Assembly (NCBI RefSeq): GCF_907163085.1
Contig: NZ_CAJQTX010000006.1
Location: 372,001 to 436,000 of the forward strand
DNA: 64,000 nucleotides
Origin: Candidatus Accumulibacter sp. ACC003
GTDB lineage: Bacteria; Pseudomonadota; Gammaproteobacteria; Burkholderiales; Rhodocyclaceae
Direction: 5' to 3'
Part shown: positions 8,166 through 61,778 of the stretch, piece after piece
Position numbering within the stretch: the stretch's first letter is position 1
Layout: each line of letters opens with the position of its first letter
Made by a program: the position numbers and the translations under genes
The notes under the pieces: generated by a model
The model's input: the letters and a program-made list of their open reading frames with translations, nothing else
Told to the model about the DNA's origin: nothing
Database searches by the model: none

Positions 8166-8169
8166 ATGT

Positions 8170-8738: not shown

Positions 8739-8742
8739 GTGG

Positions 8743-12566: not shown

Positions 12567-12591
12567 CCACCCCGCTCCACTGGAGACTGCC

Positions 12592-15605: not shown

Positions 15606-15644
15606 TAAAGTGGTCCCCATAGTCAAGACAAATATCAACCCAGT

Positions 15645-17047: not shown

Positions 17048-17113
17048 CGCTTCTCGCTCCTATGATGGAGCACAGCTTAAACCACTGTCTGATTTCCAGG
17101 GACCACTATACAC

Positions 17114-17257: not shown

Positions 17258-17263
17258 TGCACC

Positions 17264-21789: not shown

Positions 21790-21794
21790 ACCTA

Positions 21795-22034: not shown

Positions 22035-22037
22035 AGG

Positions 22038-25169: not shown

Positions 25170-25208
25170 TAAAGTGGTCCCCATAGTCAAGACAAATATC
25201 AACCCAGT

Positions 25209-40638: not shown

Positions 40639-40644
40639 TCAGCG

Positions 40645-43929: not shown

Positions 43930-44106
43930 AAATCAAGGCGGCGCCAGTTTCAGATCGACACCGCAGCTCCTGCCTTTTTGCAGCGGCTTGACTCAGCTTG
44001 GCCGGTGCCTTGTTGGCGCCGCGCAAACGAGCGATCACCGTGGCAATCAATGTCTTGTAAAAAAACACTCCAGCACCGCATCCGAGCTGAGGTCGAGTGC
44101 GGCACT

Positions 44107-44248
44107 TGATGGCAATCTCCCAGATGCTGGCCGCGCTGAAATAGTCGTCGTTCTCACGCTTGCTTAGGGCTTTGCACAGATCGCTCGGCAGGCGTTCAAC
44201 CTGATGCAGTGACCAGATCAGCACATGCGTATCGCGGAGGATGCGCAT
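44107..44248 (-). pseudogene. PIN-domain toxin, copy 2, truncated
   Basis: First ~47 residues of the toxin (MRILRDTHVLIWSLHQVERL ... SIWEIAIK) then unrelated sequence; the frame stays open to 43856. Three of the four acidic PIN positions are lost with the C-terminus. Sits 3' of an intact antitoxin copy. Confidence 0.8.
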
Positions 44249-44533
44249 TCAGCGTTCACCCTTGCGCGATCTGGCTGATTCTTCGGGGAAAATTGGCCCC
44301 TTGTAGAAGAGGTCGATCAGTTCGTCGGGCAATGGACCAGCGAAGCTATCCCGCACATTGAGCTTGCCGGTCAGGATTCCGAGTACCCGCGGTTCCATCG
44401 TTGCCGTTGCCAACGGCACCAGGCGGCAAATCGGCTTGCCAGCTTTGGCAATGATGATTTCCTCGCCAGCGGCAGCCTGCTCAACCAAACGAGAAAGTTG
44501 GGTCTTTGCGGCATGAATATTGCCCGTTTGCAT
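44249..44533 (-). CDS. Phd/YefM-type antitoxin, copy 2
   Basis: 94 residues from ATG 44533 (MQTGNIHAAKTQLSRLVEQA). Nearly identical to copy 1 through the DNA-binding part, with changes in the toxin-binding region (KLNVRDSFAGPLPD). It is intact although its toxin partner is truncated, so it could still repress TA promoters or neutralise the copy-1 toxin. Confidence 0.82.
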   Translation of the reverse strand: MQTGNIHAAKTQLSRLVEQAAAGEEIIIAKAGKPICRLVPLATATMEPRVLGILTGKLNVRDSFAGPLPDELIDLFYKGPIFPEESARSRKGER

Positions 44534-45251
44534 GCTCGCTTCCTTCAGCCAAGAAACAAGAAACGTACTTAGTCTAGTCGAACGGCGTTTTGGCGACTGT
44601 GGTGTATTCCGGTGGGTGCTTCCGTGAGAAGGCGCTTGAGCAAGGCTTGATTGCGGCGCAGCCGGCGTCCGCGCGGGCGGCTCCGCCAGCAAGCCGCATG
44701 GCCTCCGAAGGTCACCGCGCAAGCATCCTTGATCACGTTTCCCCGGCGTCAGGCCGTCATTGCGAACGGAGTGAAGCAATCCAGGGCTTTGCAGCGGCGG
44801 CGTCAGCGCGGTCGTCGGAGGGGGCTACTGGACTGCCGCGTCGCTACGCTCCTCGCAGTGACGGTGCTCAACGGTATGTGGGGGAGCGTTGGCCAGGCGG
44901 TTTTGCGAAAGCTCGACGTTGGCGATGGAAGCTTCCATCGTCGACATGGAAGCGTCTATCGCTGGCATGAATCGTTTCATGTTTTTCATGGAATGATCGA
45001 TCGTCGGCATGGAGCCTTGTACCTCCGGCATCGATCGATTCGCCCACCGCACTGGCCGTACGCTCCGCTGTTTCCCCCGCCCGCCAGCGGCGGGGATAGG
45101 CTCACAGAATGAAGCTACGAAAAACAAGGCCGCAGCCGACGAGAAGCTCGCCGGAAACTGGGGGCGGCTGGCTCGACAATGCGCAAGATCACCGTGCTGA
45201 CCCCGAATGTGTAACGGCTTCGCTGAGGCACGGGTCCAGCCATTTTGCTCC
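44534..45251. other. intergenic stretch with REP pair, no supported gene
   Basis: The first ~115 bases repeat the DNA upstream of the copy-1 antitoxin. An inverted pair of REP-like elements is at 44756-44862. The segment 44900-45030 has short internal repetitions (GGCATGGA/CGACATGGAAG). Frames on both strands are open but look like chance products of GC-rich repeats. Confidence 0.5.
44756..44862. repeat. inverted pair of REP-like elements
   Basis: GTCATTGCGAACGGAGTGAA... (44756-44784) and, inverted, a 35-base unit at 44828-44862. Both belong to the CATTGCGAGGAG...GCAATCCAG family seen at 8402 and 39472. Confidence 0.7.
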
Positions 45252-45878: not shown

Positions 45879-46069
45879 AAGGTGTCCAGATCCAAAGAAG
45901 AGTTTCGATGCGCTCAGAATAGCGGGGACGAACGGCAGTCGCCGTGAAGCAGTTCACGAAGAAGCCAAAGCAATTTTCCCGCGCTATCCCGGACTGGTAG
46001 TCGCGGCACGACGCAACAACGCACTTGTGCCGACGCCAGATTTGGGCGGAACGGCGCAGCAGCTAACAG

Positions 46070-46330
46070 GCGGCAGGTGCGCGATCTGACTCGCCTGACT
46101 GGCGGACACCGGGAGTTCGGCGAAGCTTGTTTCGCGAGTTGCTGCGGCTATGTCATCGGGACGGAAGTTGAAGTCGAAGCGCCTTGGCGCGGTCTTGATG
46201 GCGATCTCGAAGATGCTGGCCGCGCTGAAACAGACGTCGTTCTCAGGCCTGCTCAGGGCTTCGCACAGGTCGCTCGGCAGGTGTTCAACTTGATACAGTG
46301 ACCAGATCACAGCACATGCGTATCGAGGAG
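46070..46330 (-). pseudogene. PIN-domain toxin, copy 3, frameshifted and truncated
   Basis: Same toxin again: the LLDTHVL start (46310-46330) is separated from MIWSLYQVEHLPSDLCEALS by two inserted bases. The frame departs from the family after SQIAHLPP, losing the DDPFD part. Non-functional. An intact antitoxin precedes it. Confidence 0.8.
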
Positions 46331-46339
46331 GGCGTACTT

Positions 46340-46624
46340 TCAGCGTTCACCTTTGCGCGACCTAGCCGATTCTTCGGGAAAAATTGGCCCCTCGTAGAAG
46401 AGGTCGATCAGTTCGTCGGGCAATGGATCGTCGAAGCTCCCCGGCACATCAAGCTTGCCGGTCAGGATTCCGAGTACCCGCGGTTCCATCGTTGCCGTTG
46501 CCAACGGCACCAGGCGGCAAATCGGCTTGCCAGCTTTGGCAATGATGATTTCCTCGCCGGCGGCAGCCTCCTCGACCAAACGAGAAAGCTGGGCCTTGGC
46601 GGCATGAATGTTGACCGTTCGCAT
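46340..46624 (-). CDS. Phd/YefM-type antitoxin, copy 3
   Basis: 94 residues from ATG 46624 (MRTVNIHAAKAQLSRLVEEA), ending in RSRKGER like copy 2. Intact frame, partner toxin dead. The upstream GTGGCGACTGTCGTGTATTC is again shared with the other copies. Confidence 0.82.
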   Translation of the reverse strand: MRTVNIHAAKAQLSRLVEEAAAGEEIIIAKAGKPICRLVPLATATMEPRVLGILTGKLDVPGSFDDPLPDELIDLFYEGPIFPEESARSRKGER

Positions 46625-46978
46625 GCGTATGTCCTCCAGGCAAGAAACCAACTTAGTCTGGTTGAAGCAATGGCGTTGTGGCGACTGTCGTGTATTCCGG
46701 TGGGCGGTTACGTGGGCTGCGGGTGACCCGCCGCGACGTCCGGGTCAGCGGCCCGCCGCTCTAACGAAACTCCACACTATCAAGAGTCAGCGGGCGTGCG
46801 TGACCCCTGTTACGTTCACATCTCACCGCTCAGGTCGCTGCCAAATTTCTGCGGATCTACGCAACCGCCAATACTCTTCGGCCATGCGCATGCGGCGACA
46901 TGCTAAGCTGCCGCGATCAAGGGGACATGGCTGTCACAGGCACGGTAACCCCGTAAGAACCAGTCGAACTCAAGGTCC
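46625..46978. other. intergenic region upstream of the sigma-factor operon
   Basis: Starts with the repeated TA-upstream DNA. Bases ~46725-46870 resemble ~39620-39750 (shared GACCCGCCGCGA, CCGGGTCAGCG, CCCCTGTT-CGTTCAC). The operon promoter must lie in the last ~100 bases; no convincing consensus was found. Confidence 0.5.
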
Positions 46979-49342
46979 GTGGATAACTTAAAGCCGCTTT
47001 TCAGGATGGCAGCGCTTGCTGGGGTCGGTGTGGCTGTGCGCCTGCACATCAGACGCGGTGACGACGTCAACGCCGTTGACGAGCGGGGGCGTACGCCACT
47101 CATGCTGGCAGCCTCGCGGGGCCACCTAGCCATTTGCCAGTTACTTCTCGATGCCGGTGCTGATCCGAGGGCCGTCGATGCAGAGATGAGCGATGCGCTT
47201 ACGATGGCCAGAAACGCTGGTTTTCAGAAGGTCATTTCACTTCTCCAAGGGCATATTGTTGCCATGCAGCCGTTGAGTGGCGACCCACAAAAAAACGTTG
47301 CCATCACGTCGCTTCCAACCTTGACCGTTAACACGGATTCCGAGGATTTCGATCTCTCTGAATGGGTCGAGGAGACGGACACTCCACCCTCACCGCCTGA
47401 CCACGAATATCTATTACGTGCCGCCGCGGTCCAGCACCAGATCGCGAGACATATTCCTAAGGATGTGGACGAAGACTGGTCAGAAATTGATCTTGACCTA
47501 CCAAGCGCTCAAGAAACGCGCAGGCGCAGGAACGATCTTGATGACGATGCTTGTGCCGCGGTCAGGAAGTTGTTTCTTCTAGGGTTGCAAGAGGGGGGTA
47601 TATCCGCAGACTGGGTCGTTGACGCCACCCTAAAGGAGAATGACGAGCCCGATGATGAACTTGTGAGGCACATATTTCTTGTATTGGGTGACCTTGGTGC
47701 TGTCGTTTCTGAAGGAGAGTGGGGGTGGTCTATCGACGATATCCCAATCCGCCCTGCAGAAGAACTGGAGGATATGTCGAACAAGGCCCTCTTGACACTA
47801 AACAATTTCCTTCGCAATGACAGTGACCCGGAGCGCTTATATGTGCGCGAGATGTATCAAATTGCTCGGCTCACACCTGAAGGCGAGGTCGAGACCGCCA
47901 AGCGAATCGAGGACGGACAAAAGCAAATAATTCAGGCCATCTCGGCGTGTCCGACGACAATCGCCGAAGTCCTAAATTGCGCCGACAAGATAGCTCGTGA
48001 GGAAGTGCGCATCGAGGAATTGATAGATGGGCTGATCTGTCACGATGGCGAGAGCGCCTTGGAGGAAGCGGGGGAGGGCGACGAAGACGACAACAGCGAC
48101 GTGGCTGAAGGCGCAGGGGCAGCGGTCGCCCTGCTCAAGCTCAAGATCGAAGGACTCGAGCGCCTTGAGCTGATTCGTACCCGCCACAGCAAGGCGCAGG
48201 TGCTGTTGGCCAAAAAGGGCTTTCAGGACAAGGCCTATCTCCGGCTACAGGAACAGATCTCAGACGAGATGATGTGCATTCGTTTCACCTCGAAGACCAT
48301 CAAAGGCCTGTGCGATACAGTGCGCGCCATGGTTGACGAAGTGCGCACCTGTGAGCGGCGGATCCAGAGAATCTGCGTTGACACGGTGCGCATGCCGCGC
48401 ACGCACTTCATCAAGGTTTTCCCTGGCAACGAACTCAACCTCGACTGGGTGGAAAACCAAATCGCCACGGCAGGCAAGACCTACGCTGCGAGCCTTACGC
48501 GCAATGCCCCGAACATCACCGAGGAGCAACGGAAGCTGCTTGCCCTGCAGGACCGTATCGGCATCCCGCTGAAGGAACTGAAAGACATCAACAAGCAGAT
48601 GTCTACCGGCGAAGCCAAGGCACGCCGCGCTAAACGAGAAATGACCGAGGCCAATCTGCGCCTAGTGATCTCGATCGCCAAAAAGTACGCCAACCGTGGC
48701 CTGCAGTTCCTAGATCTCATCCAGGAAGGGAATATCGGCCTGATGAAGGCTGTCGACAAGTTTGAATACCGCCGCGGCTACAGATTCTCGACCTACGCTA
48801 CTTGGTGGATTCGGCAGGCCATCACCCGTTCGATTGCTGATCAGGCGCGGACGATCCGCATCCCGGTACACATGATCGAAACGATCAACAAGATGAACCA
48901 TATCTCCCGGCAAATCCTCCAGGAGACCGGTCTCGAAGCGGATCCGGCGACGCTGGCCAAGAAGATGGAGATGCCGGAAGAGAAGATCCGCAAGATCCTG
49001 AAGATCAGCAAGGAGCCGATTTCGATGGAAACGCCGATCGGCGACGACGACTTGTGCCTTGGAGATGCCGTCGAGGATAAGTCCGGCGCAGGCCCTTTCT
49101 CGCTCGATATCTACCGCAGCCTCCAGTATGTCGTGCGGGATGTTCTGGGCAGCTTGCCGCCACGTGAAGCCAAGGTGCTACGGCTGCGCTTCGGCATCGA
49201 GATGTATACCGACCATACATTGGACGAAATTGGTAAGCAATTCGATGTTACTCGAGAGCGCATTCGCCAAATCGAGGCTAAGGGCCTGCGAAGACTTCGT
49301 CATCCGTCACGTGCCGAAAGGCTGCGTCACTTCCTGGACTGA
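46979..49342 (+). CDS. ankyrin-repeat / sigma-70 family fusion protein
   Basis: 787 residues. The N-terminal ~90 residues form ankyrin repeats ([36 protein letters not shown]). A section around 190-245 recalls sigma region 1.1 ([20 protein letters not shown]). Region 1.2 is at ~281-310 ([20 protein letters not shown]), with an acidic non-conserved region after it. Region 2 is at ~552-640 ([60 protein letters not shown]), then region 3, and region 4 HTH from ~719 ([20 protein letters not shown]). It is an RpoD-like, apparently complete sigma factor. GTG 46979 is the assumed start; ATG 47007 would cut nine residues. It ends three bases before the MORC-like gene, so it is the first gene of the island operon. 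Confidence 0.88.
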
Positions 49343-49345
49343 CTG

Positions 49346-50854
49346 ATGAAAACCCCATATCGAACGCGACACGCGCCCCCCAAGGCTAGTTGCATGATCG
49401 AAGCCTTGCGCGGACTCGGCTACTCCACGGCAACTGCGCTAGCCGATGTTATCGATAACAGTATTGCCGCGCGCGCGGACAGGGTAGATGTCCAGTTAAA
49501 GTGGAACGGGACGTCAAGCGTAATCACCGTGTTGGACAACGGTGAAGGCATGAACGCGCGCGATTTGGATCTCGCCATGCGTTTGGGTGAAAAAAACCCT
49601 TCCGACGAGCGGGCTGCCAATGATCTTGGTCGCTTTGGACTGGGGTTGAAGACAGCCTCGTTTTCTCAATGCCGTCGCCTGACGGTTGCCAGTCGGCAGG
49701 GGAGCGTTACCGACTGCCTGCAATGGGACCTTGATGTTTTGGCAGCCAGTGCTGACGGCGGGTGGCACCTGATTGAGGGCCCGGCAGACGGCTCTGAGGA
49801 GTTAATTTCACCACTGCTCTCACGCGATCAAGGAACCTTGGTACTTTGGGAAAAGCTCGACCGGATCGTCACGGCCGGCTTCTGCGAACAGAATTTCCTT
49901 GATCTCATTGACGGTGTGGAACGGCACCTTGGGATGGTTTTTCACCGCTATCTTTCCGGACCGGGAATGTGCTTGCGCCTACATATCAACGGGTGCCCTA
50001 TCGTGGCTTGGGATCCCTTTTTAGCAGCACACGCGGCGACATGGTCGTCACCCGTCGAACGTGTTTCTGGCGGATGTGGGGTTGTGGAAATGCAAGCTTA
50101 CGTGCTTCCTCACAAGGATCGCCTAAATACCCGCGAGAGCGACTTGACAGCCGGTCTTGACGGGTGGACTGCACAGCAGGGATTCTATGTTTATCGTAAT
50201 CAACGTCTTTTGGTCGCGGGAAGCTGGCTCGGTCTGGGGCGTGCGCGTCCGTGGACTAAAGAGGAGGCGTATCGGCTTGCCCGAATTCGACTGGATATCC
50301 CGAATACATCGGATGCTGAATGGAAATTGGACATCCGCAAATCTAGGGCAAGGCCGCCAGTATATCTCCGGGAAAGACTCACGAGGCTTGCCGAAGACGC
50401 TCGCGAGCGAGCCCGTAGGGTTTTTGCACACAGAGGACAGGTTAATCGAGTGGCAAGCCACCAACCACTCTTGCAGGCTTGGCGTGCCGAGCATTTCAGG
50501 GGAGGTATGCGATACCGAATCGATCCAGATCATCCAGCGATCAGTGCAGTACTTGACGATGCGGGGACCATGGAAGGTGATATTCGGGCCATGCTTCGTG
50601 TAATCGAGGAAACGATTCCGGTGCAGCGAATCTGGCTCGATACAAGTGAAGCACGTGAAACCCCACGTACCGGTTTTGCCGACGAGCCAGTCGAAGGAGT
50701 TGCCGTTGTCCTCCGTGTCCTGTTCAGGAACATGATCAAGCGCAAAGGCCTCTCGTCGAAGATGGCTCGCGAGCGACTGGCATGTACGGAGCCATTCAAT
50801 AACTACCCCGGACTGGTGGCAGCCCTGCCAGATGATATCGACACACTGGAATGA
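49346..50854 (+). CDS. MORC/MutL-like GHKL ATPase
   Basis: 502 residues. GHKL ATPase motifs near the N-terminus: ALADVIDNSIAA (Asn ~38), VLDNGEGMN (~62-70), and GRFGLGLKTASF (~95-106). A MutL-S5-like middle follows (VLPHKDRLNTRESD, QGFYVYRNQRLLVAGSWLGL, DIPNTSDAEWKLDIRKS). No endonuclease tail. Families of this kind (prokaryotic MORC relatives) were described next to Z1, AIPR, methylase and Vsr genes in restriction-like clusters. Likely an ATP-driven clamp that detects or remodels DNA; precise role unknown. Confidence 0.85.
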   Translation: MKTPYRTRHAPPKASCMIEALRGLGYSTATALADVIDNSIAARADRVDVQLKWNGTSSVITVLDNGEGMNARDLDLAMRLGEKNPSDERAANDLGRFGLGLKTASFSQCRRLTVASRQGSVTDCLQWDLDVLAASADGGWHLIEGPADGSEELISPLLSRDQGTLVLWEKLDRIVTAGFCEQNFLDLIDGVERHLGMVFHRYLSGPGMCLRLHINGCPIVAWDPFLAAHAATWSSPVERVSGGCGVVEMQAYVLPHKDRLNTRESDLTAGLDGWTAQQGFYVYRNQRLLVAGSWLGLGRARPWTKEEAYRLARIRLDIPNTSDAEWKLDIRKSRARPPVYLRERLTRLAEDARERARRVFAHRGQVNRVASHQPLLQAWRAEHFRGGMRYRIDPDHPAISAVLDDAGTMEGDIRAMLRVIEETIPVQRIWLDTSEARETPRTGFADEPVEGVAVVLRVLFRNMIKRKGLSSKMARERLACTEPFNNYPGLVAALPDDIDTLE

Positions 50855-50860
50855 CCTGAG

Positions 50861-53701
50861 ATGGCAGCAACTGCAGAGGAAAACCGCCGGAGAGTTGTCA
50901 AGTTCGTTCAAGAACTTCTGCTTGCAGAGGACGACAGATCCGCAGTGACACCGACTCTCATCGCCGAGAAAATTGACTTGGTAGTAGTAATGCAACCGAA
51001 GTGGGGAGAGGGCCTCGACCGTGGGCTGGTGATCGAAGAACTGATCAGGCGCTTTAGCATCTGGATCGGTCAAGACGCCACCTTGAAAAACAACGAGGGC
51101 CACCAACCGTGGCTAAACGCAACGAGAAAGCGCGAATGGCGCTACTGGCAGCGCTATCGAGAATTTCTTGAGCGGGAGATCTCTTGGAAAGCGGTCGAGG
51201 GCCTAGATGCGGCAACCGATGCTATCCTCGGAATGCTTGAGGATCCTGCCCGCAACGGTTCTTGGGACAGACGAGGATTGGTGGTGGGGCACGTGCAATC
51301 AGGCAAGACTGGTAACTACACGGGGCTGATCTGCAAAGCTGCAGACGCGGGCTACAAGATCATCGTCGTGCTTGCTGGGCTTCACAACAACCTGCGTTCG
51401 CAGACTCAGATGAGACTCGATGAGGGATTTCTCGGATACGAGACTAAGCCAGTTGCAGAGGACATCAGAGTCATCGGTGTCGGGGAGATCGACGGTGACC
51501 CGGCCATCAGGCCGAACTTCGTGACAAATCGTTCAGAGAGCGGTGATTTCAGCACTGCCGCGGCAATGAACCTCGGTATCACGCCGGAGCAGAGGCCATT
51601 GCTGTTTGTTGTCAAGAAGAACAAGACGGTCTTGGAGCACCTCTACCGCTGGATACGCAATCACGTAGCTAACCTACAGGATCCGAAGACGGGACGAAAA
51701 ATCGTCACACATCTCCCCTTACTACTTATCGATGACGAGGCAGACCATGCTTCGGTCGACACCGGCGAGCAAATCTTCGACTCCGATGGCAAGCCTGATG
51801 ACGAGCATCAACCCACAGCGATAAACAGCTGTGTTCGTAAAATCTTGCACTCGTTTGCAAGGGTTGGTTATGTAGGCTATACGGCCACACCGTTTGCCAA
51901 TATATTTATTCACGAACGGGGCGAAACAATCGAAGAAGGTCCAGACCTTTTCCCAGCCGCCTTTATTGTCAACCTCGCTGCTCCATCGAACTACGTGGGT
52001 CCCGCCAAGGTGTTTGGACTTGCCTCCTCGGAGGGGCGGATCGGTGGGTTGCCACTCCTGCGCGACATTGTGGATCATGTGTCGCCCGAGGGTGGAGGGT
52101 GGATGCCGCAGAAACACAGAAACGGCCACCACCCCCTCCATCAAGGGCATGACACCCTTCCCCCGTCTCTTGCGGAGGCAGTCGACTCGTTCCTTCTTGC
52201 GTGCGCCGCACGTCGTGTCCGTGGGCAAGGTGACGCCCACTCCTCGATGCTTGTGCATGTGACTCGGTTTAATTCGGTGCAAAGCGCAGTCTATCGGCAA
52301 GTCGCGGAACATGTGCGCTACCTAAGCCAGAGACTCCGCAGAAAGATCGACGACGGCCCCATTCTCTTGCGTCTCAAGGGGTTGTGGGACGACGATTTCT
52401 GCCATACGGCGCAGGCTGTCCCCGACTCACCCGGTTTGCCGAACTGGGATGAAGTGGAAGCAGAGCTGGCTGATGCCGCCGCTGATATCTCGGTGCGAAT
52501 GATCAATGGTATGGCCAAAGATGCGCTCGATTATGTTGAAAATTCTGGGAAGGGCCTCAAGGTGATTGCCATCGGCGGCGACAAGCTCGCTCGTGGTTTG
52601 ACGCTTGAGGGGCTATGCGTGAGCTATTTCCTGCGTGCGTCAAAGATGTACGACACGCTGATGCAGATGGGCCGATGGTTTGGGTATCGCCCAGGCTACT
52701 TGGATCTTTGCCGTCTCTACACAACTCCAGAACTCTCCAACTGGTTCTGTCACATCGCCGACGCGGCTGAGGAACTGAGGGAAGAGTTCGACCTCATGGC
52801 CGCAAGCGGCGCAACACCCAGAGAATATGGCCTCAAGGTGCAGTCGCATTCCGTTCTGATGGTGACGTCGCGTCTCAAGATGCGTACCGCGAAAAACCTC
52901 ATGCTCTCATTCAGTGGGCAGCTTCTAGAAACAGTATCCCTCCGCAGGAGTCGCCACGACATCTCAAATAACCTTGAGGCAGCGCAAAGACTACTCAGGG
53001 CCCTTGGCAAACCAGACGAGATGGATCCAATAAGGATGATGGACGGAAAAGTCGACAAGTGGACGGGGTTCCTCTGGTCGGATGCAAGCGCATCGGCGAT
53101 CTCGGACTTCTTCGCCGGCTACTCAACGCACCCGGCCGCTCTGAAGGTAAATAGCGCGATGCTGGCGGAATTTATCGAATCAATGGCACGTATGGGCGAG
53201 CTAACCCGCTGGACTGTAGCGCTCGCGCGCAGTGGTTTGGGAGATGAGATCGAGCTGGTTCCCGGCGTGTGTCTCAGCATGAGCAAGCGCAGGGGCGAGA
53301 AGAAGTTCGACGATCGCTACGCGATAGGCCGGCTGCTGGACCCACGTGACGAAGCGGTAGACCTTGACGAAGCCCAGTGGAACGCGGCCCTTGCGGCGAC
53401 ACGGGCAGCACGAAAGACCGATCCGGCGAGGTCCTCGGACACGATGACCCCTGAGATTCCTAACGGTCCAGCAATTCGGAAGATTCGTGGCTTTGGGGCC
53501 AGTGGTATACCAGCGCGGCCGGACCGGGGCTTGCTTATCCTCTATGCGCTGGACCCGGCCAAAGCAGAGATTGATTTCCCGGAGGACACGCCACCCGTGA
53601 TCGCTTTTGGCGTGAGTTTCCCAGGCAGCAATTCGGGGCTCAAGGTCGAATACAAGGTCAACAACGTGCTGTGGGAGCAGGAATATGGTCCTGCAGACTG
53701 A
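50861..53701 (+). CDS. Z1-domain helicase-like ATPase
   Basis: 946 residues. P-loop GHVQSGKTGNYTGLICKAAD at ~142-161, Walker B LLIDDEADHAS at ~288, VGYTATPFANIFIHE at ~336 and AIGGDKLARGLTLEGLCVSY with MQMGRWFGYRPGY (helicase motif V/VI-like). These define the Z1 superfamily-II-like ATPase found in MORC/AIPR clusters. Starts six bases after the MORC stop; overlaps the nuclease-like gene by 17 bases. Confidence 0.88.
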   Translation: MAATAEENRRRVVKFVQELLLAEDDRSAVTPTLIAEKIDLVVVMQPKWGEGLDRGLVIEELIRRFSIWIGQDATLKNNEGHQPWLNATRKREWRYWQRYREFLEREISWKAVEGLDAATDAILGMLEDPARNGSWDRRGLVVGHVQSGKTGNYTGLICKAADAGYKIIVVLAGLHNNLRSQTQMRLDEGFLGYETKPVAEDIRVIGVGEIDGDPAIRPNFVTNRSESGDFSTAAAMNLGITPEQRPLLFVVKKNKTVLEHLYRWIRNHVANLQDPKTGRKIVTHLPLLLIDDEADHASVDTGEQIFDSDGKPDDEHQPTAINSCVRKILHSFARVGYVGYTATPFANIFIHERGETIEEGPDLFPAAFIVNLAAPSNYVGPAKVFGLASSEGRIGGLPLLRDIVDHVSPEGGGWMPQKHRNGHHPLHQGHDTLPPSLAEAVDSFLLACAARRVRGQGDAHSSMLVHVTRFNSVQSAVYRQVAEHVRYLSQRLRRKIDDGPILLRLKGLWDDDFCHTAQAVPDSPGLPNWDEVEAELADAAADISVRMINGMAKDALDYVENSGKGLKVIAIGGDKLARGLTLEGLCVSYFLRASKMYDTLMQMGRWFGYRPGYLDLCRLYTTPELSNWFCHIADAAEELREEFDLMAASGATPREYGLKVQSHSVLMVTSRLKMRTAKNLMLSFSGQLLETVSLRRSRHDISNNLEAAQRLLRALGKPDEMDPIRMMDGKVDKWTGFLWSDASASAISDFFAGYSTHPAALKVNSAMLAEFIESMARMGELTRWTVALARSGLGDEIELVPGVCLSMSKRRGEKKFDDRYAIGRLLDPRDEAVDLDEAQWNAALAATRAARKTDPARSSDTMTPEIPNGPAIRKIRGFGASGIPARPDRGLLILYALDPAKAEIDFPEDTPPVIAFGVSFPGSNSGLKVEYKVNNVLWEQEYGPAD

Positions 53702-54704
53702 ACGGGACGAACTTCTTGCCGCCTGGAGTGCCCTCTCCGGCGATGCCGGGAGCAATGGATGGCGCACCATCAGAGTTGCCTGCGGAGCGCCCTGCCCACT
53801 CTTCGCTGGACGTCGATTTCCGGGAAACGAGGAGGCGCTTCTGGTGGGGTTTGAGTCGGCGCGTGTTCCGCGCTCCGAGGAGCTTCCGCAGGGGAAGGGT
53901 TTCCTCGTCACACGAACAGATTTCGGCGGCTGCATCCCGGGTCTCACTTGGATCGCACTGATACGGCAAAGTCAGGGCCGACTGGATTTTTTTGCTTCGA
54001 TGGCAGTCGACGTCGTTGCGATCTTGGCGGCAATGAAAGACCAGAATCGCGAGACGGTGGTCGATGCGTTCGTAGCCAGAATACGAGCGTGGCAGGAATT
54101 CATGCTCAGGGGTGATGACGGCCTGCTTCGCGCGGAGGCGGAATTGGGACTGTTTGGCGAGATAGAAATGCTGCTGGCGATATCTAGTGCTGGGCTCTGG
54201 CCGTCGTCGGCCGTCGATGCATGGCAAGGACCATTAGGCGGTATCCGGGATTTTTCTCTTGGTGCCGGTGCTATCGAGGTCAAGAGCACTTTGTCGCACG
54301 CTGGTTTTCCTGCGAAGGTAGGTTCCTTGGATCAACTTGACGATTCCGTGGTGCAACCGATCTTTCTTGCGGGTGTCAGGCTCACCCTGTCCTCTGCTGG
54401 GCGGACTCTTCCCGAACTGGTCATGCGTCTACGCGCCACTCTTGGCGCCGACGGCGCGGTTTTGGCAGCGATTGACAGCAGACTAATTCATGCTGGGTTC
54501 GTTCACCAGGTGGCCTCAAGCTATACACGACGTTTCTCCGTCGTCGGAATCAAGTTGTTATTGGTGGCCGGTAGTTTCCCGAGACTTACACAAGGCAACG
54601 TTCCGCCGGAAATCAGGGCGGCGCGCTACGACCTTGATCTCGATCTCGTCCACGGATGGGACACGACTATCGAGGGCGCACTCGAACGGCTTGGAGTGAT
54701 TTAA
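53685..54704 (+). CDS. PD-(D/E)XK motif nuclease-like protein
   Basis: 339 residues. ATG 53685 inside the end of the Z1 gene. The nuclease core is visible as GLFGEIEMLLAIS (Glu), WQGPLGGIRDFSLGAGAIEV with the following KST, i.e. D...E-V-K. It fits the 'PD-(D/E)XK motif protein' family always seen between Z1 and AIPR genes. Likely the DNA-cutting component. No signal or membrane segment. Confidence 0.82.
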   Translation: MVLQTERDELLAAWSALSGDAGSNGWRTIRVACGAPCPLFAGRRFPGNEEALLVGFESARVPRSEELPQGKGFLVTRTDFGGCIPGLTWIALIRQSQGRLDFFASMAVDVVAILAAMKDQNRETVVDAFVARIRAWQEFMLRGDDGLLRAEAELGLFGEIEMLLAISSAGLWPSSAVDAWQGPLGGIRDFSLGAGAIEVKSTLSHAGFPAKVGSLDQLDDSVVQPIFLAGVRLTLSSAGRTLPELVMRLRATLGADGAVLAAIDSRLIHAGFVHQVASSYTRRFSVVGIKLLLVAGSFPRLTQGNVPPEIRAARYDLDLDLVHGWDTTIEGALERLGVI

Positions 54705-54705
54705 A

Positions 54706-56508
54706 ATGGAACTAGAAGAATTTCTTCGCCAGACGCAAGCCGAAGTGCTGGCCGAGATAGGAGAGAGGCTTGGCGCGGCAGGCGAGGCTTATCCCTATCC
54801 GGAGTCGGTTTTCGCCGAGATTGTAATGCAGCATATGTTCGAGATAGGGATGACGTTTGAACCAGTAGTGTGTCACTACGCTGCTAGGGTAGACAATGCC
54901 AATTTGCGGTTGAGTGGATTTGCTATATCCGATGATGCCGAACAGCTTGATCTTTTTGTTAGTCTTTATGACCAAGTTGGCAGTCTGACGCCGGTGGCAG
55001 ACACAGACACCAAGAGAGCCGCACAACAATGTCTGCATTTTCTAGCTAAATGCGCTGATGGCAGGCTGGCCAATACAATGGACGAATCCAACGATGCATA
55101 CCTTCTCGCCGTAACCGTCCATGGTTGTTACGCTAAGCTGGACCAGATAAGGATCTACGTTTTAACCGATAGACAGGCTAGGGCCAAGAATTTCAAAGCA
55201 CGGGAGATAGCTGGAAAAACAGTGAAGCTCGAGGTCATGGACATCGAGCGTCTTCACAGACACTGGTCAGCGGGAAAGCCACGCGACGAACTGGTTGTGA
55301 ATTTCGAGGAAATGGAATACGGGCCTCTGCCTTGCGTGTATGTTCCTGGCGAGATGGCTGACTACGACTATGCCTTGACCGCTATTCCAGCAGAAGCGCT
55401 GCGCTTGGTCTATGAGAAATATGGCGCACGACTACTCGAAGCCAATGTTCGGTCGTTTCTCAGCGCCGCCGGCAAGGTTAACAGGGGGATCCGTGACACC
55501 CTGCGGGATAACCCAGAGCGCTTCATGGCGTACAACAACGGCATCGTTGTTGTAGCCGATGAAATTGTTCTTGGCAAAACCGCTGATGGCGGCCCCGGCA
55601 TTCTCTGGCTAAAAGGTATGCAAATCGTCAACGGCGGCCAGACAACCGCTTCTATATATTTTTCCAAGAAACGAACTCCGGAGATAGATTTACGATACGT
55701 GAGGGTGCCGGCCAAAATTATAGTCCTGCGGGCATGCAATACCGAGAGCGAGGAAACACTTGTCTGCGATATTTCTCGGTACGCAAATACGCAAAACTCG
55801 GTGCGGCAGTCCGACCTGTCAGCAAACAAGCCCTTCCACGTCGAGGTCGACAAACTCGCATCAACGACGTACTGCCCCGATGGCGTTGGGCGCTGGTTCT
55901 ACGAACGTGCTACAGGTAGCTACAACACCATGCTTGCCCGTGAGGGGACGACGCCGGCACGTCTAAGGCGTCTCAAGGAAGTGGTGATACCCCCGTCAAG
56001 GAAGATCATCAAGACGGATCTGGCGAAGTACATCAGCGCATGGGATCAGAAACCCGATCGAGTCAGTCTTGGCGCACAGAAGAACTTCGAGCGCTTCATG
56101 GAGGAGTACAGGGAGCAGGAAGGACAAGCGCCGGCTCCACTGCCCGACGTTGCCGCCTACAAGACTATGATCGCCAAGGCTATTCTTTTCAAGAAGACCC
56201 ACGCCTTGGTGCGGCCCATGTTTCCGGCTTTTCAGGGAAACGTTGTTGTATATCTGATTTCTCTCTTTGCGGAGCGCCTTGGCAACAGGATGGATTTTGA
56301 CAAAATATGGATTCTTCAAGACATCTCCCCCAGTCTTCGACGGCATCTCAGGACTTGGGCGACAGAAGTTCATAGCGTGTTGCAGAACTCCGCGGACGGG
56401 CGAATGATTTCAGAGTGGGCCAAGAAGCCGGAGTGTTGGGTGGCTGTGCGATCCGCTTTATATTCAGGCGTACCCGACGACATCCCAGAGTTGGTTCGGT
56501 ATCGATGA
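54706..56508 (+). CDS. AIPR family protein (abortive-infection phage-resistance type)
   Basis: 600 residues. The AIPR core is recognisable: NPERFMAYNNGIVVVADEIV (~270-290), LKGMQIVNGGQTTASIYFSK, ISRYANTQNSVRQSDLSANK and the WFYERATGSYNTML stretch. AIPR proteins are linked to phage resistance by abortive infection. Starts one base after the upstream stop. This gene and its upstream neighbours are visibly more AT-rich than the core genes, a sign of transfer. Confidence 0.88.
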   Translation: MELEEFLRQTQAEVLAEIGERLGAAGEAYPYPESVFAEIVMQHMFEIGMTFEPVVCHYAARVDNANLRLSGFAISDDAEQLDLFVSLYDQVGSLTPVADTDTKRAAQQCLHFLAKCADGRLANTMDESNDAYLLAVTVHGCYAKLDQIRIYVLTDRQARAKNFKAREIAGKTVKLEVMDIERLHRHWSAGKPRDELVVNFEEMEYGPLPCVYVPGEMADYDYALTAIPAEALRLVYEKYGARLLEANVRSFLSAAGKVNRGIRDTLRDNPERFMAYNNGIVVVADEIVLGKTADGGPGILWLKGMQIVNGGQTTASIYFSKKRTPEIDLRYVRVPAKIIVLRACNTESEETLVCDISRYANTQNSVRQSDLSANKPFHVEVDKLASTTYCPDGVGRWFYERATGSYNTMLAREGTTPARLRRLKEVVIPPSRKIIKTDLAKYISAWDQKPDRVSLGAQKNFERFMEEYREQEGQAPAPLPDVAAYKTMIAKAILFKKTHALVRPMFPAFQGNVVVYLISLFAERLGNRMDFDKIWILQDISPSLRRHLRTWATEVHSVLQNSADGRMISEWAKKPECWVAVRSALYSGVPDDIPELVRYR

Positions 56509-56584
56509 TCGATGCGCAAGAGGAGATTAGATCGGTGCGCGTAGGCAATCACCGCCTTGAGTGCGGTGGCAGTATTCTTTCATC

Positions 56585-58171
56585 GTGATACACGTCATTG
56601 ATCTTTTCGCAGGCCCTGGGGGGCTTGGCGAGGGCTTCGGCTCACTTCGTGACAGCACCGATGAAGCAGTGTTCGATATTCGTTCGTCGTTCGAAAAGGA
56701 GCCGGTGGCCTATCGCACCCTCTCTCTGCGGGCCTTCTACAGGGCTTTTGGCCATCCGAGTGATGTGCCCGGCGAGTACTACCAATACCTGCGCAACAGA
56801 ATTTCCCGGGAAGATCTGTTGGGAAATCCTCGTTTTCGTGATCAGGCCAGCAGGGCGCTTGAAGAGGCGCATTGCGTTGAACTCGGCATCACGCCAGCCG
56901 AGGAGGTCGACCAGAAGATAGCGCACGCCCTCCGGGGCAATATGCCGTGGGTACTGATTGGCGGCCCGCCCTGCCAGGTCTACTCGGTGGTTGGGCGGGC
57001 TCGCTGGCGTCGAGACAATGTCGAGAAATTTGAAGGCGACCATCGGCATTTTCTCTACAAGGAGTATCTTCGGATCATCCAGAAGTTTCAGCCTGCCGTC
57101 TTCGTGATGGAGAATGTCCGGGGAGTACTGTCGTCGACACATGGCGGCACCCCGATCTTCAACAGAATCCTGGACGACCTCTCAAACCCTTCTCCGGGGC
57201 TCCACTACGAAATTCGTTCGTTCAATTGCGCCGGTGATGCGCGGACCGCGAACCCCATGAACTTTGTGGTTCAGTCCGAGAACCATGGCCTGCCACAAGC
57301 CCGTCACCGGGTGATGCTCCTTGGTGTTCGTGAAGATATCCGGGCCCGGCAGCATCAGGTGCTCGCAAGAACAGGTTCGGTGTCGGTTAACCAAGCAATT
57401 CATGATTTGCCTCGTGTCCGGAGTCTCCTCTCACGCGGCAAGGATTCCGCCGAAAGCTGGCAAACCATCTTTGACGAGCTGTTGGCAGTGCTGTCCAGAA
57501 CGGCGCCAGGAACCCTGAGCTTCGTGAACCAGGAGCTCGAACTGTCCATGGCGGGCCGAGCGATACCGGCAAGCGCCGGGGGGCGCTATATGCGTGGCCT
57601 CGAAGCCAGAGCTGACCGGCTGCCTCCAAGCTTGAGAGAGTGGTTACGTGACGAACGCCTGGAGGGGTATATCCAGCATGAGGCCCGCGCCCACATGCGG
57701 GCCGATCTGCACCGTTATCTTTATAGTGCTTGTTTCGCCAAGCGGCACCGCCGCTCGCCAAAGGTTGATGAGTTTCCTCGAGAGTTGCTGCCCCAACACG
57801 CGAATGTGCATTCCGAGAAGGTGCCATTTCGTGACCGCTTCCGGGTACAGCTCGAAAATGGGCCATCGACCACCGTGGTATCCCACATTTCAAAGGATGG
57901 TCACTACTACATTCACTACGATCCTGCCCAGTGCCGCAGTCTTACCGTTCGAGAGGCTGCGCGTTTGCAGACGTTTCCTGACAACTATTTTTTCGAGGGT
58001 AACCGTACGGAGCAATATTGGCAGGTTGGCAATGCCGTTCCGCCGTTTCTCGCCAGGCAGGTTGCAGGCATCGTAGCCGAGCTTCTTCAGGGCGGCGAAC
58101 AGACCGCTGAACGAGCGGGCGAAGGAAGTCCGACCGTCGCCGTGGAGCCTCTCGCCAAGTTGCCAGCATGA
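56585..58171 (+). CDS. DNA (cytosine-5) methyltransferase
   Basis: 528 residues if started at GTG 56585 (VIHVIDLFAGPGGLGEGF); GTG 56561 would add eight. All C5-MTase motifs are present in order: I DLFAGPGG, IV GGPPCQVYS (catalytic Cys), VI VMENVRGV, VIII QARHRV, then a target-recognition region (~240-430), IX REAARLQTFPD and X GNAVPP. Expected to mark host DNA so that the island's nuclease spares it; recognition sequence unknown. Followed immediately by vsr (overlap). Confidence 0.93.
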   Translation: MIHVIDLFAGPGGLGEGFGSLRDSTDEAVFDIRSSFEKEPVAYRTLSLRAFYRAFGHPSDVPGEYYQYLRNRISREDLLGNPRFRDQASRALEEAHCVELGITPAEEVDQKIAHALRGNMPWVLIGGPPCQVYSVVGRARWRRDNVEKFEGDHRHFLYKEYLRIIQKFQPAVFVMENVRGVLSSTHGGTPIFNRILDDLSNPSPGLHYEIRSFNCAGDARTANPMNFVVQSENHGLPQARHRVMLLGVREDIRARQHQVLARTGSVSVNQAIHDLPRVRSLLSRGKDSAESWQTIFDELLAVLSRTAPGTLSFVNQELELSMAGRAIPASAGGRYMRGLEARADRLPPSLREWLRDERLEGYIQHEARAHMRADLHRYLYSACFAKRHRRSPKVDEFPRELLPQHANVHSEKVPFRDRFRVQLENGPSTTVVSHISKDGHYYIHYDPAQCRSLTVREAARLQTFPDNYFFEGNRTEQYWQVGNAVPPFLARQVAGIVAELLQGGEQTAERAGEGSPTVAVEPLAKLPA

Positions 58172-58683
58172 TGGATGTGGTGGATCCGGCGACACGTTCC
58201 CGCATGATGTCGGGTATCAGGGGCAAGAACACGCGCCCGGAAATGCTGGTACGGAAATTCCTGCACGGGCACGGCTTTCGTTACCGGCTGCACTCAAAGA
58301 GCCTGCCAGGAAGTCCGGACATCGTGATGCGGAAGTGGAAGGTTGCCGTTTTGGTGCACGGCTGCTTCTGGCATCGTCATGAAGGCTGCAGATTTAGCAC
58401 CACACCAGGCAGCAACGTTGGACACTGGCAGAGCAGGTTTGAGGAAAACACCGTGCGTGATCGACGGAACGTCTGCGAGCTTGTAGCCAGAGGGTGGAGA
58501 GTTATCATTCTGTGGGAATGCGGTTTGAGAGAGGTTAAGGCGGGCAAGCTAAACCTCCTGTGGCTGCTCGACAGCATCAGGACTGCAAACTGTGCCGGCC
58601 GCCTATTGGAATGGCCCCAAGCAGAAGGTAAACTTGGACCCGAGCACCATTCCACCATTTCGACGGTCGGTTTGTTGACCTGA
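58168..58683 (+). CDS. vsr: very short patch repair endonuclease Vsr
   Basis: 171 residues, ATG 58168 overlapping the methylase stop. Vsr nicks 5' of the T in T:G mismatches left by deamination of 5-methylcytosine. Landmarks are VVDPATRSRMMSGIRGKNTR, HGHGFRYRLHSKSLPGSPDI (catalytic Asp), VLVHGCFWHRHEGCR (zinc/active-site His and Cys) and VRDRRNVCELVARGWRVIIL. Its presence confirms that the neighbouring enzyme makes 5-methylcytosine. The C-terminal ~25 residues are longer than usual. Confidence 0.94.
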   Translation: MMDVVDPATRSRMMSGIRGKNTRPEMLVRKFLHGHGFRYRLHSKSLPGSPDIVMRKWKVAVLVHGCFWHRHEGCRFSTTPGSNVGHWQSRFEENTVRDRRNVCELVARGWRVIILWECGLREVKAGKLNLLWLLDSIRTANCAGRLLEWPQAEGKLGPEHHSTISTVGLLT

Positions 58684-58696
58684 AGGAGGAGTAGCC

Positions 58697-59002
58697 ATGG
58701 CGACGCAGACAAATGAAGGCCAGGACAGAATCGAGACGATGGCGTTCGAATTCAGTGTAAATCTGAAGAGATGGCTGTCGCACAAGCAGATGAAGAAGGT
58801 GGTTTCCCGGAACAAGCACGAGGACGAGCCAAACATCTGTCACAGTCATGATTTCTGCGATGCAAACATGGCACTGCACGATGTGTTCATGAAGCATGGG
58901 ATGGATGTGACGGCTGAAGGGGGTGTCACTCGTCATGGTCAGGAATGGCATGATGTCTGGCAACTGGCCAAGCGGAAGCGCTTCTGGTTCCGGCCAAAGT
59001 AG
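58697..59002 (+). CDS. small protein of unknown function at the end of the island operon
   Basis: 101 residues; strong AAGGAGG ribosome site before ATG 58697, 13 bases after vsr. Features are a basic FEFSVNLKRWLSHKQMKKVV and a His/Cys/Asp-rich NICHSHDFCDANMALHDVFM that could bind metal, then WHDVWQLAKRKRFWF. I do not recognise a named domain. The pattern NICHSHDFCDAN recurs, as far as I recall, in unannotated small bacterial proteins. Position suggests it belongs to the operon. Confidence 0.75.
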   Translation: MATQTNEGQDRIETMAFEFSVNLKRWLSHKQMKKVVSRNKHEDEPNICHSHDFCDANMALHDVFMKHGMDVTAEGGVTRHGQEWHDVWQLAKRKRFWFRPK

Positions 59003-59148
59003 GGTGAGCGGACTCCTCTGAAGTCGAACTGGAAGGCCTTCGTTCGCGAAACGGCTGCCGCCGACAACAGCGCCCGCTTCCCCCAAACTACTACCCAGCA
59101 ACTCCCCGCAGCCGCGCTTCCTCCTCGCGCCTTGCCTTCCCGCCAACC

Positions 59149-59547
59149 CTACAGCCAGTTCTCCATGGCCTTCGCGTCAACGCACTCTTCATCCGTCGTC
59201 ACCACCGGTACTGCCTTCGCACGCTTGATCACTTCGCGCACCACGTCGGGTGACAGGAGATTGGCGATACGCGCGTGTGGCAGCGGGAAAACGATTGCTT
59301 TGCAGCCGAGCTGCTCGGCGATGTCGCCTTCGCGGTAGTTCTCCTGGTAGGAAACGCCGGCCGCGGTCAGTGTTTGCACGGCATCGTGCAGGATGTCGGC
59401 CAAGGCCTGCGCCACTGCGCCGGTGATCGCCAGTTCGCTGCCGATGCCGACGACCATGAAGCCAAGCTGCTGGTTCATAAGTTCGCTGGCTATCGACGCG
59501 ACGGCAATCTGATGGTGGTCGGGGCAAGCGGAAGCAGTTGACCCCAC
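59149..59547 (-). pseudogene. chimeric remnant: MrpD-like piece fused to universal stress protein C-terminus
   Basis: Read on the minus strand, residues ~24-55 (NQQLGFMVVGIGSELAITGA) match NQVGFMVVGIGIGTEMALNG of the MrpD-like protein encoded at 61779-63461. The rest (HDAVQTLTAAGVSYQENYRE ... VREVIKRAKAVPVVTTDE ... ENWL) matches the C-terminal half of the universal stress protein at 61217-61726. No ribosome site or proper N-terminus. A recombination product at the right edge of the MORC/Vsr island, not a functional gene. Confidence 0.82.
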
Positions 59548-59642
59548 ACGTGACGCCGTTTTAAGGTGGCGACGAACCCGAATGCTCCGTGTTGAAAGAT
59601 CGCCAGCTACCCACGACGACAGTCAGAATAACCGAGGGAATA

Positions 59643-61094
59643 ATGACCATGCTTTCGTCCCTGCTCGTTCGCCCGCTGCTGTTGCTGTCGCCGGCTCTGG
59701 CATGGGCCTCCGCAGGGGGTGGCGAGCGCCTTGACCTGACCGCGCACTGGGTCGGTTTTGCCGCCCTGGCCTTGTTTGGCCTCGCCTACGCACTGGTGAT
59801 GGCGGAGGAGGTCACGCATCTACGCAAGTCGAAACCCGTGATCCTGGCCGCTGGCATCATCTGGGCCCTGATCGGCAGCGTTTATACCGCCCACGGCATG
59901 AACCATGCGACAGAAATGGCGGTGCGGCATAATCTTCTCGAATACGCCGAGCTGATGCTGTTCCTGCTGGTCGCAATGACCTACATCAATGCCATGAGCG
60001 AGCGCAATGTCTTCGAGGCCCTGCGCTCGTGGCTGATCAAGAAGGGCTACGGACTGCGGAAACTGTTCTGGATAACGGGCGTGCTGGCGTTTTTCATCTC
60101 TCCGGTCGCCGATAACCTGACCACCGCGCTGCTGATGTGCGCGGTGGTCATGGCGGTCGGCGGCGAAAATGCCAGGTTCGTCCTGCTCGCCTGCATCAAT
60201 ATCGTCGTGGCGGCAAACGCCGGTGGCGCCTTTAGTCCCTTTGGCGACATCACGACGCTGATGGTCTGGCAGAAAGAGATCCAGACGCCGCAGGGTGTGG
60301 TGGGCTTCGGCTCCTTCTTTGCCCTGTTCATTCCCGCGCTGGTCAACTGGCTGCTACCGGCGGCCATTATGTCGACCAGGGTTCCGAACGTACAACCCCT
60401 CGGTGGCGGTGCGGCAGTGGTGATGAAACGCGGTGCCAAACGCATCATTGCCCTGTTCCTGCTGACTATCGCGACAGCCATCGGCTACCACAACTTCATA
60501 AATCTGCCACCGGTCATCGGCATGCTGACCGGCCTGGCCTATCTGCAGTTCTTCGGCTATTACCTGAAGAAAACCGTGCACTTTGAGTACGGCATGAGCA
60601 GGCGTCGGTTCCGGACCGAGATCAGGAACGACGACAGCATGGGCAGCCTGCCGGCATTCAACGTCTTCGACAAGATTGCCCGGGCCGAGTGGGATACCTT
60701 GCTTTTTTTCTACGGCGTGGTGTTATGCGTCGGCGGCCTCGGTTTCATCGGCTACCTGGCGATGGCCTCCGAGCTGATGTATGGCGACTGGGGTGCGACC
60801 AGGGCCAATATCGCGATCGGCATCCTGTCGGCGATCGTCGACAACATCCCGGTGATGTTCGCCGTGCTGACCATGCTGCCGGAGATGTCGATGGGGCACT
60901 GGCTGCTGGTCACGCTTACCGCGGGGGTGGGCGGTTCCCTGATGTCAATCGGTTCGGCCGCAGGGGTGGCTTTGATGGGGCAGGCGCGCGGCAAGTACAC
61001 CTTCTTCGGCCACCTCAAATGGGCGCCGGTCATCGCGCTCGGCTACGCTGCCAGCATCGCCACGCACCTGTGGATCAATAATGCGATGTTCTAG
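59643..61094 (+). CDS. nhaD: Na+/H+ antiporter NhaD
   Basis: 483 residues from ATG 59643, GAGGGA six bases upstream. Signal-like first helix, then about a dozen membrane helices of the NhaD/ArsB superfamily. The paired re-entrant motifs ISPVADNLTTALLMCAVVMA and IGILSAIVDNIPVMFAVLTM and the ANAGGAFSPFGDITTLMVWQ segment are typical of NhaD. It exports sodium in exchange for protons. It stands alone on the plus strand, facing the MrpD-like operon, so the neighbourhood is devoted to cation homeostasis. Confidence 0.92.
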   Translation: MTMLSSLLVRPLLLLSPALAWASAGGGERLDLTAHWVGFAALALFGLAYALVMAEEVTHLRKSKPVILAAGIIWALIGSVYTAHGMNHATEMAVRHNLLEYAELMLFLLVAMTYINAMSERNVFEALRSWLIKKGYGLRKLFWITGVLAFFISPVADNLTTALLMCAVVMAVGGENARFVLLACINIVVAANAGGAFSPFGDITTLMVWQKEIQTPQGVVGFGSFFALFIPALVNWLLPAAIMSTRVPNVQPLGGGAAVVMKRGAKRIIALFLLTIATAIGYHNFINLPPVIGMLTGLAYLQFFGYYLKKTVHFEYGMSRRRFRTEIRNDDSMGSLPAFNVFDKIARAEWDTLLFFYGVVLCVGGLGFIGYLAMASELMYGDWGATRANIAIGILSAIVDNIPVMFAVLTMLPEMSMGHWLLVTLTAGVGGSLMSIGSAAGVALMGQARGKYTFFGHLKWAPVIALGYAASIATHLWINNAMF

Positions 61095-61216: not shown

Positions 61217-61726
61217 CTACAGCCAGTTGTTCTCAGCCTTCTCGGCAATGCCTGCCGCATCCGTCGTCACCACCGGCACGGCCTTCGCGCGCTTGATCAC
61301 TTCGCGGACCACGTCGCGCGAGAGGAGTTTGGCGATCCGCGCGTGCGGCAGCGGCAGAATGATCGCCTGGCAGCCGAGTTGTTCGGCGACGTCGCCGATC
61401 TGCTCGACGATGTCGCCTTCGCGGTAGATCTTCTGGCAGGACACGCCTGCCGCGGTCAGCGCTTGCGCGGCATCGTGCAGGATGTGCGCGCCGCATTCGG
61501 CCTGGAAGCGGGCGATCTCGACGTGCGTACGAAAACGCAGCACTTCCGGCGCGGTGACCGCTTCCGAGACGAATAGCAGCGCGACCTGCACCGGCTGGCC
61601 GCTGCGCTGCAGACGCATGGCGTAGCGAATTCCCCAGCGCGAGCGTTCGGTCGGGTCGACCGGGATGAGCAGCCGCTTGGCGCGTGCGCCTTGCGCAAGC
61701 GGTTGATAGGCAAGGGGCTGGCTCAT
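61217..61726 (-). CDS. universal stress protein (UspA family)
   Basis: 169 residues from ATG 61726, with AAAGGAGG upstream. KRLLIPVDPTERSRWGIRYA start, VALLFVSEAVTAPEVL and a C-terminal core AEQLGCQAIILPLPHARIAK. The ATP-binding GxxGSxS loop of classical UspA is not evident. The segment GDIVEQIGDVAEQLG looks like an in-frame 21-bp duplication compared with GDIAEQLG in the remnant at 59149-59547. Downstream of the MrpD-like genes in the same direction. Confidence 0.85.
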   Translation of the reverse strand: MSQPLAYQPLAQGARAKRLLIPVDPTERSRWGIRYAMRLQRSGQPVQVALLFVSEAVTAPEVLRFRTHVEIARFQAECGAHILHDAAQALTAAGVSCQKIYREGDIVEQIGDVAEQLGCQAIILPLPHARIAKLLSRDVVREVIKRAKAVPVVTTDAAGIAEKAENNWL

Positions 61727-61778
61727 GATGCCTCCTTTCGCGTTCAATCCGCTCGGAATCGGCGAGCTGTTCATCGAG

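Follow-up and report, generated by a model that had tools for sequence, protein, structure and literature searches.

A divergent Mza-like operon in Candidatus Accumulibacter with a sigma factor gene that very probably carries a tract of same-genus rpoD

Why would a defence-like operon begin with the gene of a complete sigma factor? We addressed this question at a locus of Candidatus Accumulibacter sp. ACC003, within a stretch of 64,000 nucleotides (contig NZ_CAJQTX010000006.1, positions 372,001 to 436,000), hereafter the window; position numbers refer to this whole 64-kb stretch. An earlier note, made from the sequence alone, had described eight same-direction genes at 46979..59002 with spacings of -17 to about 76 bases, and had regarded the sigma factor at the front and a 101-aa protein at the end as additions that could not be attributed to a described system. 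The list of open reading frames (ORFs) confirmed eight ORFs, all on the plus strand from 46979 to 59002, and the overlap of 17 bases, the largest in the operon; the gaps measured at most 52 bases. Pfam bore out the domains that had been assigned. Using the PADLOC Mza models, we found that genes 1-5 correspond to MzaA, MzaB, MzaC, MzaD, and MzaE, in the same order and on one strand. Because all five scores fall under the NCBIfam equivalog cut-offs (MzaA 593/800, MzaB 797/850, MzaC 1359/1500, MzaD 370/420, and MzaE 987/1050), we call the genes Mza-like rather than NCBIfam equivalogs. Judged by these matches, the operon is almost certainly a divergent Mza-like system, a kind already described: mzaABCDE is the MZA anti-phage system reportedly presented by Gao et al. 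in Science in 2020.

The product of the first gene (46979..49342, the window MzaA) holds regions 1.2, NER, 2, 3, and 4 of an RpoD-type sigma-70 factor along with its promoter- and core-contact residues, and the genome encodes its own RpoD elsewhere (G000:C2). Over residues 188-787 the two are 72% identical; among named genomes, the nearest RpoD belongs to a Rhodocyclales bacterium (L022) and reaches 77%. Identity to the own RpoD is 27% in residues 190-290. In 30-codon windows, seven of the eight windows from residue 444 to 683 share 28-30 residues with it, after which the count drops to 15, and residues 690-787 are 66% identical to same-genus RpoD proteins, which are themselves 98.9-100% identical to the host's there. 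Across residues 294-683, identity is 83.3% (amino acid) and 82.3% (nucleotide) to the own rpoD, and 86.4% and 84.5% to the rpoD of a sister species (L169), values close to the rpoD-rpoD distance within the genus. Third-position G+C (GC3) along mzaA is 0.574 before this tract, 0.739 inside it, and 0.635 after it, compared to 0.799 in host rpoD. Synonymous divergence (dS) is 0.60-0.98 inside the tract and 1.4 or saturated after it, whereas host rpoD compared with that of L169 gives 0.69-0.78 throughout.

For the rest of the gene, we compared 70 MzaA proteins (the window's, 67 from the 69 MzaA-bearing loci among the relatives described below, and those of L132 and L133) with 55 RpoD rows. The N-terminus (residues 1-290) matches 65 of the 70 MzaA proteins, itself included, and none of the RpoD rows; its best matches are L133 and L132 (47% and 45%), whose MzaA proteins are without the rpoD tract. 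L132, a same-genus Mza operon, also holds the nearest relatives of MzaB, MzaC, MzaD, MzaE, and the methylase. A triplet test placed the tract at residues 290-768, with RpoD-like versus MzaA-like sites at 151:5 inside and 16:45 outside (permutation p at most 5e-5). The tract is firmly bounded on the left; on the right it ends either near residue 684 or farther along, in which case that part changed fast afterwards. Taken together, these results suggest that MzaA is very probably a mosaic in which a tract of same-genus rpoD lies inside a gene derived from Mza. Within residues 536-683, omega is 0.009-0.020, and the captured sigma2-3 is therefore under strong purifying selection.

Is this tract a single accident? 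A carefully made tree of residues 384-683 was built from nine MzaA rows and 51 of the 55 RpoD rows (49 in the NER and sigma2-3 trees; fragmentary or very distant rows were dropped, and the own RpoD proteins of L042 and L087 are missing from the set). The nine are the MzaA proteins with a well-aligned NER, those with a weak one (L014, L017, L030, L032, L056, and L077) being left out, and group names were taken from record titles. The tree contains six changes between MzaA and RpoD labels, six of which are forced by starred branches (values in brackets below), and in none of 200 bootstraps was the number of label changes as low as one. The window MzaA groups with same-genus RpoD (99/93) and is closer to the rpoD of two sister species than to that of its own host, which would place the capture within the genus, and perhaps not in an ancestor of this genome. 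Elsewhere in the tree, the MzaA of L087 groups with Rhodocyclales RpoD (98/86), those of L035 and L033 with Gallionellaceae-type RpoD (100/99), that of L009 with its own RpoD (99/96), those of L015, L019, and L020 with Competibacteraceae RpoD (100/99), and that of L058 inside a Burkholderiales group (100/99). A single MzaA clade was rejected by the approximately unbiased (AU) test (p 9.99e-5). In a tree of NER only, seven label changes are forced, and the L035 MzaA joins its own host's RpoD (100/98, starred). This protein, from Candidatus Nitrotoga, matches the RpoD of its own host in residues 318-673 (sites 96:14 inside and 15:100 outside; triplet permutation p at most 5e-5) and the sister MzaA of L033 in the flanks. 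Since the RpoD rows follow host groups, we read the label changes as captures by mzaA; the opposite direction, from mzaA to rpoD, was rejected, as the MzaA rows nest inside those groups. Separate and repeated captures of rpoD by mzaA are, on these alignments, probable.

Such tracts could also arise passively: mzaA and rpoD may be similar enough to recombine, and a tract would have no particular role but be retained since one sigma core does as well as another. The most conserved region falls within the converted part; several MzaA proteins have a weakly conserved NER (best RpoD identity 18-55%), and the NER end branches are long in the MzaA of L009, L033, and L058, as they are in two RpoD rows, all of which would suit this explanation. 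However, the low omega of residues 536-683 indicates selection on the captured sigma2-3, and six label changes occurred among only nine MzaA rows. We consider a purely passive origin improbable.

What has been kept across the family bears on function. In 53 of the 70 MzaA proteins that were scanned with Pfam, we counted Ank_2 in 50, sigma region 2 in 53, region 4 in 53, region 3 in 37, and NER in 14; the ankyrin-sigma architecture is the normal one for MzaA, and the factor at the front of the operon is no unattributable addition. In the predicted model of the window MzaA (mean predicted local distance difference test score, pLDDT, 86.6), an ankyrin block is joined to a sigma fold by a linker whose confidence is low in two stretches, 100-124 and 160-184; the PDB entries that match the model best are of E. 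coli sigma70 in holoenzyme. Fourteen columns are invariant in the 53 proteins, including W167 in the linker, W610, R617, and R759/E760/R761/R763/Q764 of the -35 helix. W167 lies in the second low-confidence stretch, between ankyrin and sigma, and this stretch is perhaps a docking motif. With residue numbers that we take to be those of the E. coli sigma70 promoter and core contacts (R584, E407, etc.), all 70 MzaA proteins keep the residues aligned to R584, E585, R586, R588, Q589, W434, and R441; Q437 is kept in 69, Y430 in 64, and W433 in 50. For the core contacts, the counts are 69 (D403), 70 (Q406), 51 (E407), 47 (N409), and 36 (M413). As aligned, the promoter-reading residues are widely kept, those for the -35 element everywhere, and one subgroup, mostly alphaproteobacterial by record title, has lost putative core contacts. 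Sigma2 reaches 98-99% identity to RpoD; in region 4, no MzaA of the 70 exceeds 81% to any of the 55 RpoD rows.

These patterns do not favour all roles equally. MzaA might be a decoy for phage anti-sigma proteins: the capture of rpoD is repeated and specific to host lineages, and partners could be bound through the ankyrin domain and the invariant W167, which lies in a linker that is probably flexible. Region 4, however, is a usual target of phage anti-sigma proteins, and this is the part that stays at or below 81%; of the two recent cases, it was not refreshed in L035, and in the window it lies beyond the drop in identity. A decoy could also dispense with promoter contacts, whereas the residues aligned with the -35 contacts do not vary among MzaA proteins, and we regard this role as unlikely. 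Alternatively, MzaA may target the Mza nuclease or complex to promoters. The -35 contact residues are present in 70/70 proteins, even where core-contact residues are lost, a nuclease and a MORC protein are encoded in the same operon, and a methylase is nearby in 43 of 49 well-covered loci (>21 kb). On the other side, any contact of MzaA with the nuclease is putative, and among 64 well-flanked loci four retain MzaB-E but have no MzaA, which leaves targeting a somewhat doubtful option.

We favour a third role, in which MzaA would be a spare sigma-70 that uses ordinary promoters on the host polymerase and would be less exposed than RpoD to the anti-sigma proteins of invaders. It is favoured because the -35 residues are invariant, sigma2-3 is under purifying selection, and region 4 remains at most 81% identical to any RpoD; even so, we hold it tentatively, short of an even chance. 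A more specific version, in which gene conversion keeps the core host-like while region 4 is not taken over, so that Mza's phage-proof spare sigma-70 would read the same promoters and escape or report a phage shut-off of RpoD, is rather unlikely in our estimate. For identity, mosaic structure, repeated capture, and mechanism taken as one statement, we see the chances as evenly balanced.

Several observations weigh against that statement. Vsr is nearest to L023, not L132, and the window region 4 resembles RpoD more than it does other MzaA proteins, which makes it uncertain where the tract ends on the right. The sigma2-3-only tree and the sigma2-4 tree (64 MzaA proteins, six near-copies left out), both built quickly from conserved or mixed sequence, force only one label change; the signal of multiple origins is mainly in NER. 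Each label change may stand for a gain or for a loss, and the reading of all of them as captures rests on the RpoD rows following host groups. As NER is found in only 14 of 53 MzaA proteins and looks decayed in several, a recent capture is not evident in most MzaA proteins. The E407 and N409 positions, retained in just 51 and 47 of the 70 proteins, argue against RNA polymerase binding in one subgroup. The sigma factor is not essential to the module, given the four loci without it. Promoter-like sites in 45900-59700 are at chance level (5 found versus 5.4 expected), and gene conversion could follow passively from homology.

The literature searched, which lacked most subscription papers and all bioRxiv preprints, held no published explanation of the role of the sigma factor in Mza and no report of rpoD capture by Mza. 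What is new here is the rpoD-derived tract in MzaA; the kind of operon was already known. If the gene-conversion version of the spare-sigma reading is true, an immune system would update one of its parts from a housekeeping gene of its host. The repeated overwriting of the core by rpoD, lineage by lineage, is a natural experiment that hints at where the sigma factor has to fit the host and where it is free to differ, and it suggests a route by which a mobile defence island may adapt to a new host.

The neighbourhoods of relatives show which genes belong to the system. We examined the 80 loci with the nearest MzaC relatives, chosen from at least 548, and the counts describe that branch. MzaA is present in 69, MzaB and MzaC in 80, and MzaD and MzaE in 79 each; a C5-methylase accompanies 59, Vsr 61, at least one of both 67, and the small protein 2 (methylase and Vsr were counted at a BLAST match of 1e-5 anywhere in the locus, so an unrelated copy could count). 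When only the 49 loci of more than 21 kb are counted, the numbers are 46 (MzaA), 43 (methylase), 44 (Vsr), 47 (either), 40 (both), and 2 (small protein). Methylase and Vsr are regular companions of Mza, often in the opposite orientation. The four loci without MzaA, counted among the 64 with at least 7 kb upstream of MzaC, are from Pseudomonas or Stutzerimonas, and there the methylase stands directly before MzaB. After MzaE, a second AIPR-like gene of about 900 aa is found in L018, L023, L026, and L036. The MzaB N-box reads ALAD..DN (49346-50854); its Asp, which presumably sits where MutL has the catalytic Glu, is in all 12 listed strings, covering 58 of 73 relatives.

The 101-aa protein has a different distribution from MzaC. 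It matches phrog_21393 (unknown function, 6e-12), and its relatives are in 20 phage records, several being one phage listed twice, and four plasmid records. In 300 genomes of the order it occurs in its own genome only, and an MzaC relative occurs in 12, own genome included, of 200 genomes that come mostly from the genus and family. It is best read as a predicted accessory gene of mobile elements, and we rejected it as part of the system. Co-occurrence with Mza genes, which the earlier note had proposed looking for, holds for the sigma-ankyrin gene and fails for the small one. That note's overall reading was an undescribed eight-gene system with both proteins as new additions. All eight genes do run in one direction, and the one-strand order MzaA-B-C-D-E-methylase-Vsr is found in none of the 80 relatives, as a distinct system might predict. 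The operon stands, but the sigma factor is MzaA and the small protein belongs to a phage and plasmid family seen at two Mza loci, and we find the eight-gene reading hardly tenable. Coordinates are given in Table 1.

Table 1. Features of the Mza-like operon in the window
Feature	Position	Strand	Evidence
mzaA-like: ankyrin repeats aa 11-89, linker, RpoD-type sigma70 regions 1.2/NER/2/3/4	46979..49342	+	Pfam; PADLOC MzaA 3e-83; NCBIfam MzaA 593 bits, RpoD NF004208 724 bits
Probable rpoD-derived tract of mzaA, aa about 290-683, same-genus source; right end uncertain	47846..49027	+	nucleotide identity, trees, AU, triplet test, GC3, dS
mzaB-like MORC (GHKL) ATPase	49346..50854	+	PADLOC MzaB 1.6e-195; MORC motif GFYVYRNQRLL
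mzaC-like, third gene	50861..53701	+	PADLOC MzaC 0; gene order
mzaD-like PD-(D/E)XK nuclease (DUF4420), D...EVK present	53685..54704	+	DUF4420 5e-64; MzaD 4e-57
mzaE-like AIPR protein	54706..56508	+	AIPR 1.9e-92; MzaE 1.6e-234
C5-cytosine DNA methyltransferase, PCQ and ENV motifs present	56561..58171	+	2.3e-40 domain match; motifs in translation
Vsr-type nicking endonuclease (predicted)	58168..58683	+	domain match 6e-31
101-aa accessory protein, phage/plasmid family, judged outside the system	58697..59002	+	phrog_21393 6e-12; distribution of relatives

The G+C of the operon is below that of much of the window, and its GC3 (0.56-0.68, versus 0.81-0.84 in two genes downstream) shows the weaker third-position bias that is expected of acquired DNA. 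A comparison of insertion sites showed that the right flank is common to four same-genus relatives only from 59469-59641 onward; the left boundary was not found. The left-flank protein has one close match (64%) in 28 genomes of the genus, own genome excluded. Beside the right boundary, a piece (61217-61485) of a universal-stress-protein gene (61217-61774) is repeated at 59149-59396, across nhaD. To the left, a repeat of several hundred bases has three related copies (40370-41060, 43980-44667, and 46069-46714; spacing 3.6 and 2.1 kb); in two copies the minus-strand frame looks by eye like a disrupted PIN-toxin gene, and Pfam gave no match at 0.001. An Rfam scan of 40000-64000 gave no match. The window also holds Zorya type I genes in 13677-25172 (ZorA 13677-15608, ZorC 17977-19425, and ZorD 22038-25172), with a 736-aa Transposase_29 protein (19542-21752) between ZorC and ZorD. 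Defence-like genes in 4008-12658 encode an SLFN/AlbA protein (4008-5249), an AAA/SMC-type ATPase (5262-8024, PADLOC Ppl match 4e-41), and a type I restriction R-like protein (9068-12658).

Compared with housekeeping RpoD, the window MzaA shares regions 1.2-4, is 85.4% identical to the host RpoD over aligned sigma2-4, and passes the NCBIfam RpoD cut-off (NF004208, 724 versus 555 bits); unlike RpoD, it has an ankyrin N-terminus, a diverged region 4, and a place in a defence operon. A second long RpoD (830-912 aa) is found in Duganella, Massilia, and a Burkholderiaceae genome (L134, L135, and L136), and we rejected these proteins as further MzaA members, since none is near Mza genes; that of L134, the one scanned, has no ankyrin match and adjoins heme genes. 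The link to MORC restriction-like neighbourhoods drawn in the earlier note holds. Iyer, Abhiman, and Aravind (2008; PMC2292703) described a third type of MORC restriction-modification operon, in which methylase and Vsr are frequent. Checked by eye in the translations, its motif set is present in our operon, namely the MORC S5 motif GhXhhpXXRhl, a superfamily-II ATPase with DThhQXuRhFG, and an E-D-ExK nuclease, the last pinned down only as D...EVK, and a DNA methylase and Vsr lie in the neighbourhood; unlike here, 'sigma' and 'ankyrin' are absent from the main text of that paper. In the parts of PMC9523054 (Nat Commun 2022) on which we draw, a putative defence system type II is about 20% identical to mzaBCDE and has mzaA in a few systems only, whereas, compared by gene content only, mzaA is present here and MzaB-E have strong Mza scores. 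Relative to the MZA of Gao et al. 2020, the present operon differs in that all five genes lie under the NCBIfam equivalog cut-offs, the sigma core was very probably taken from rpoD of the genus, and a methylase and Vsr follow downstream in the same direction.

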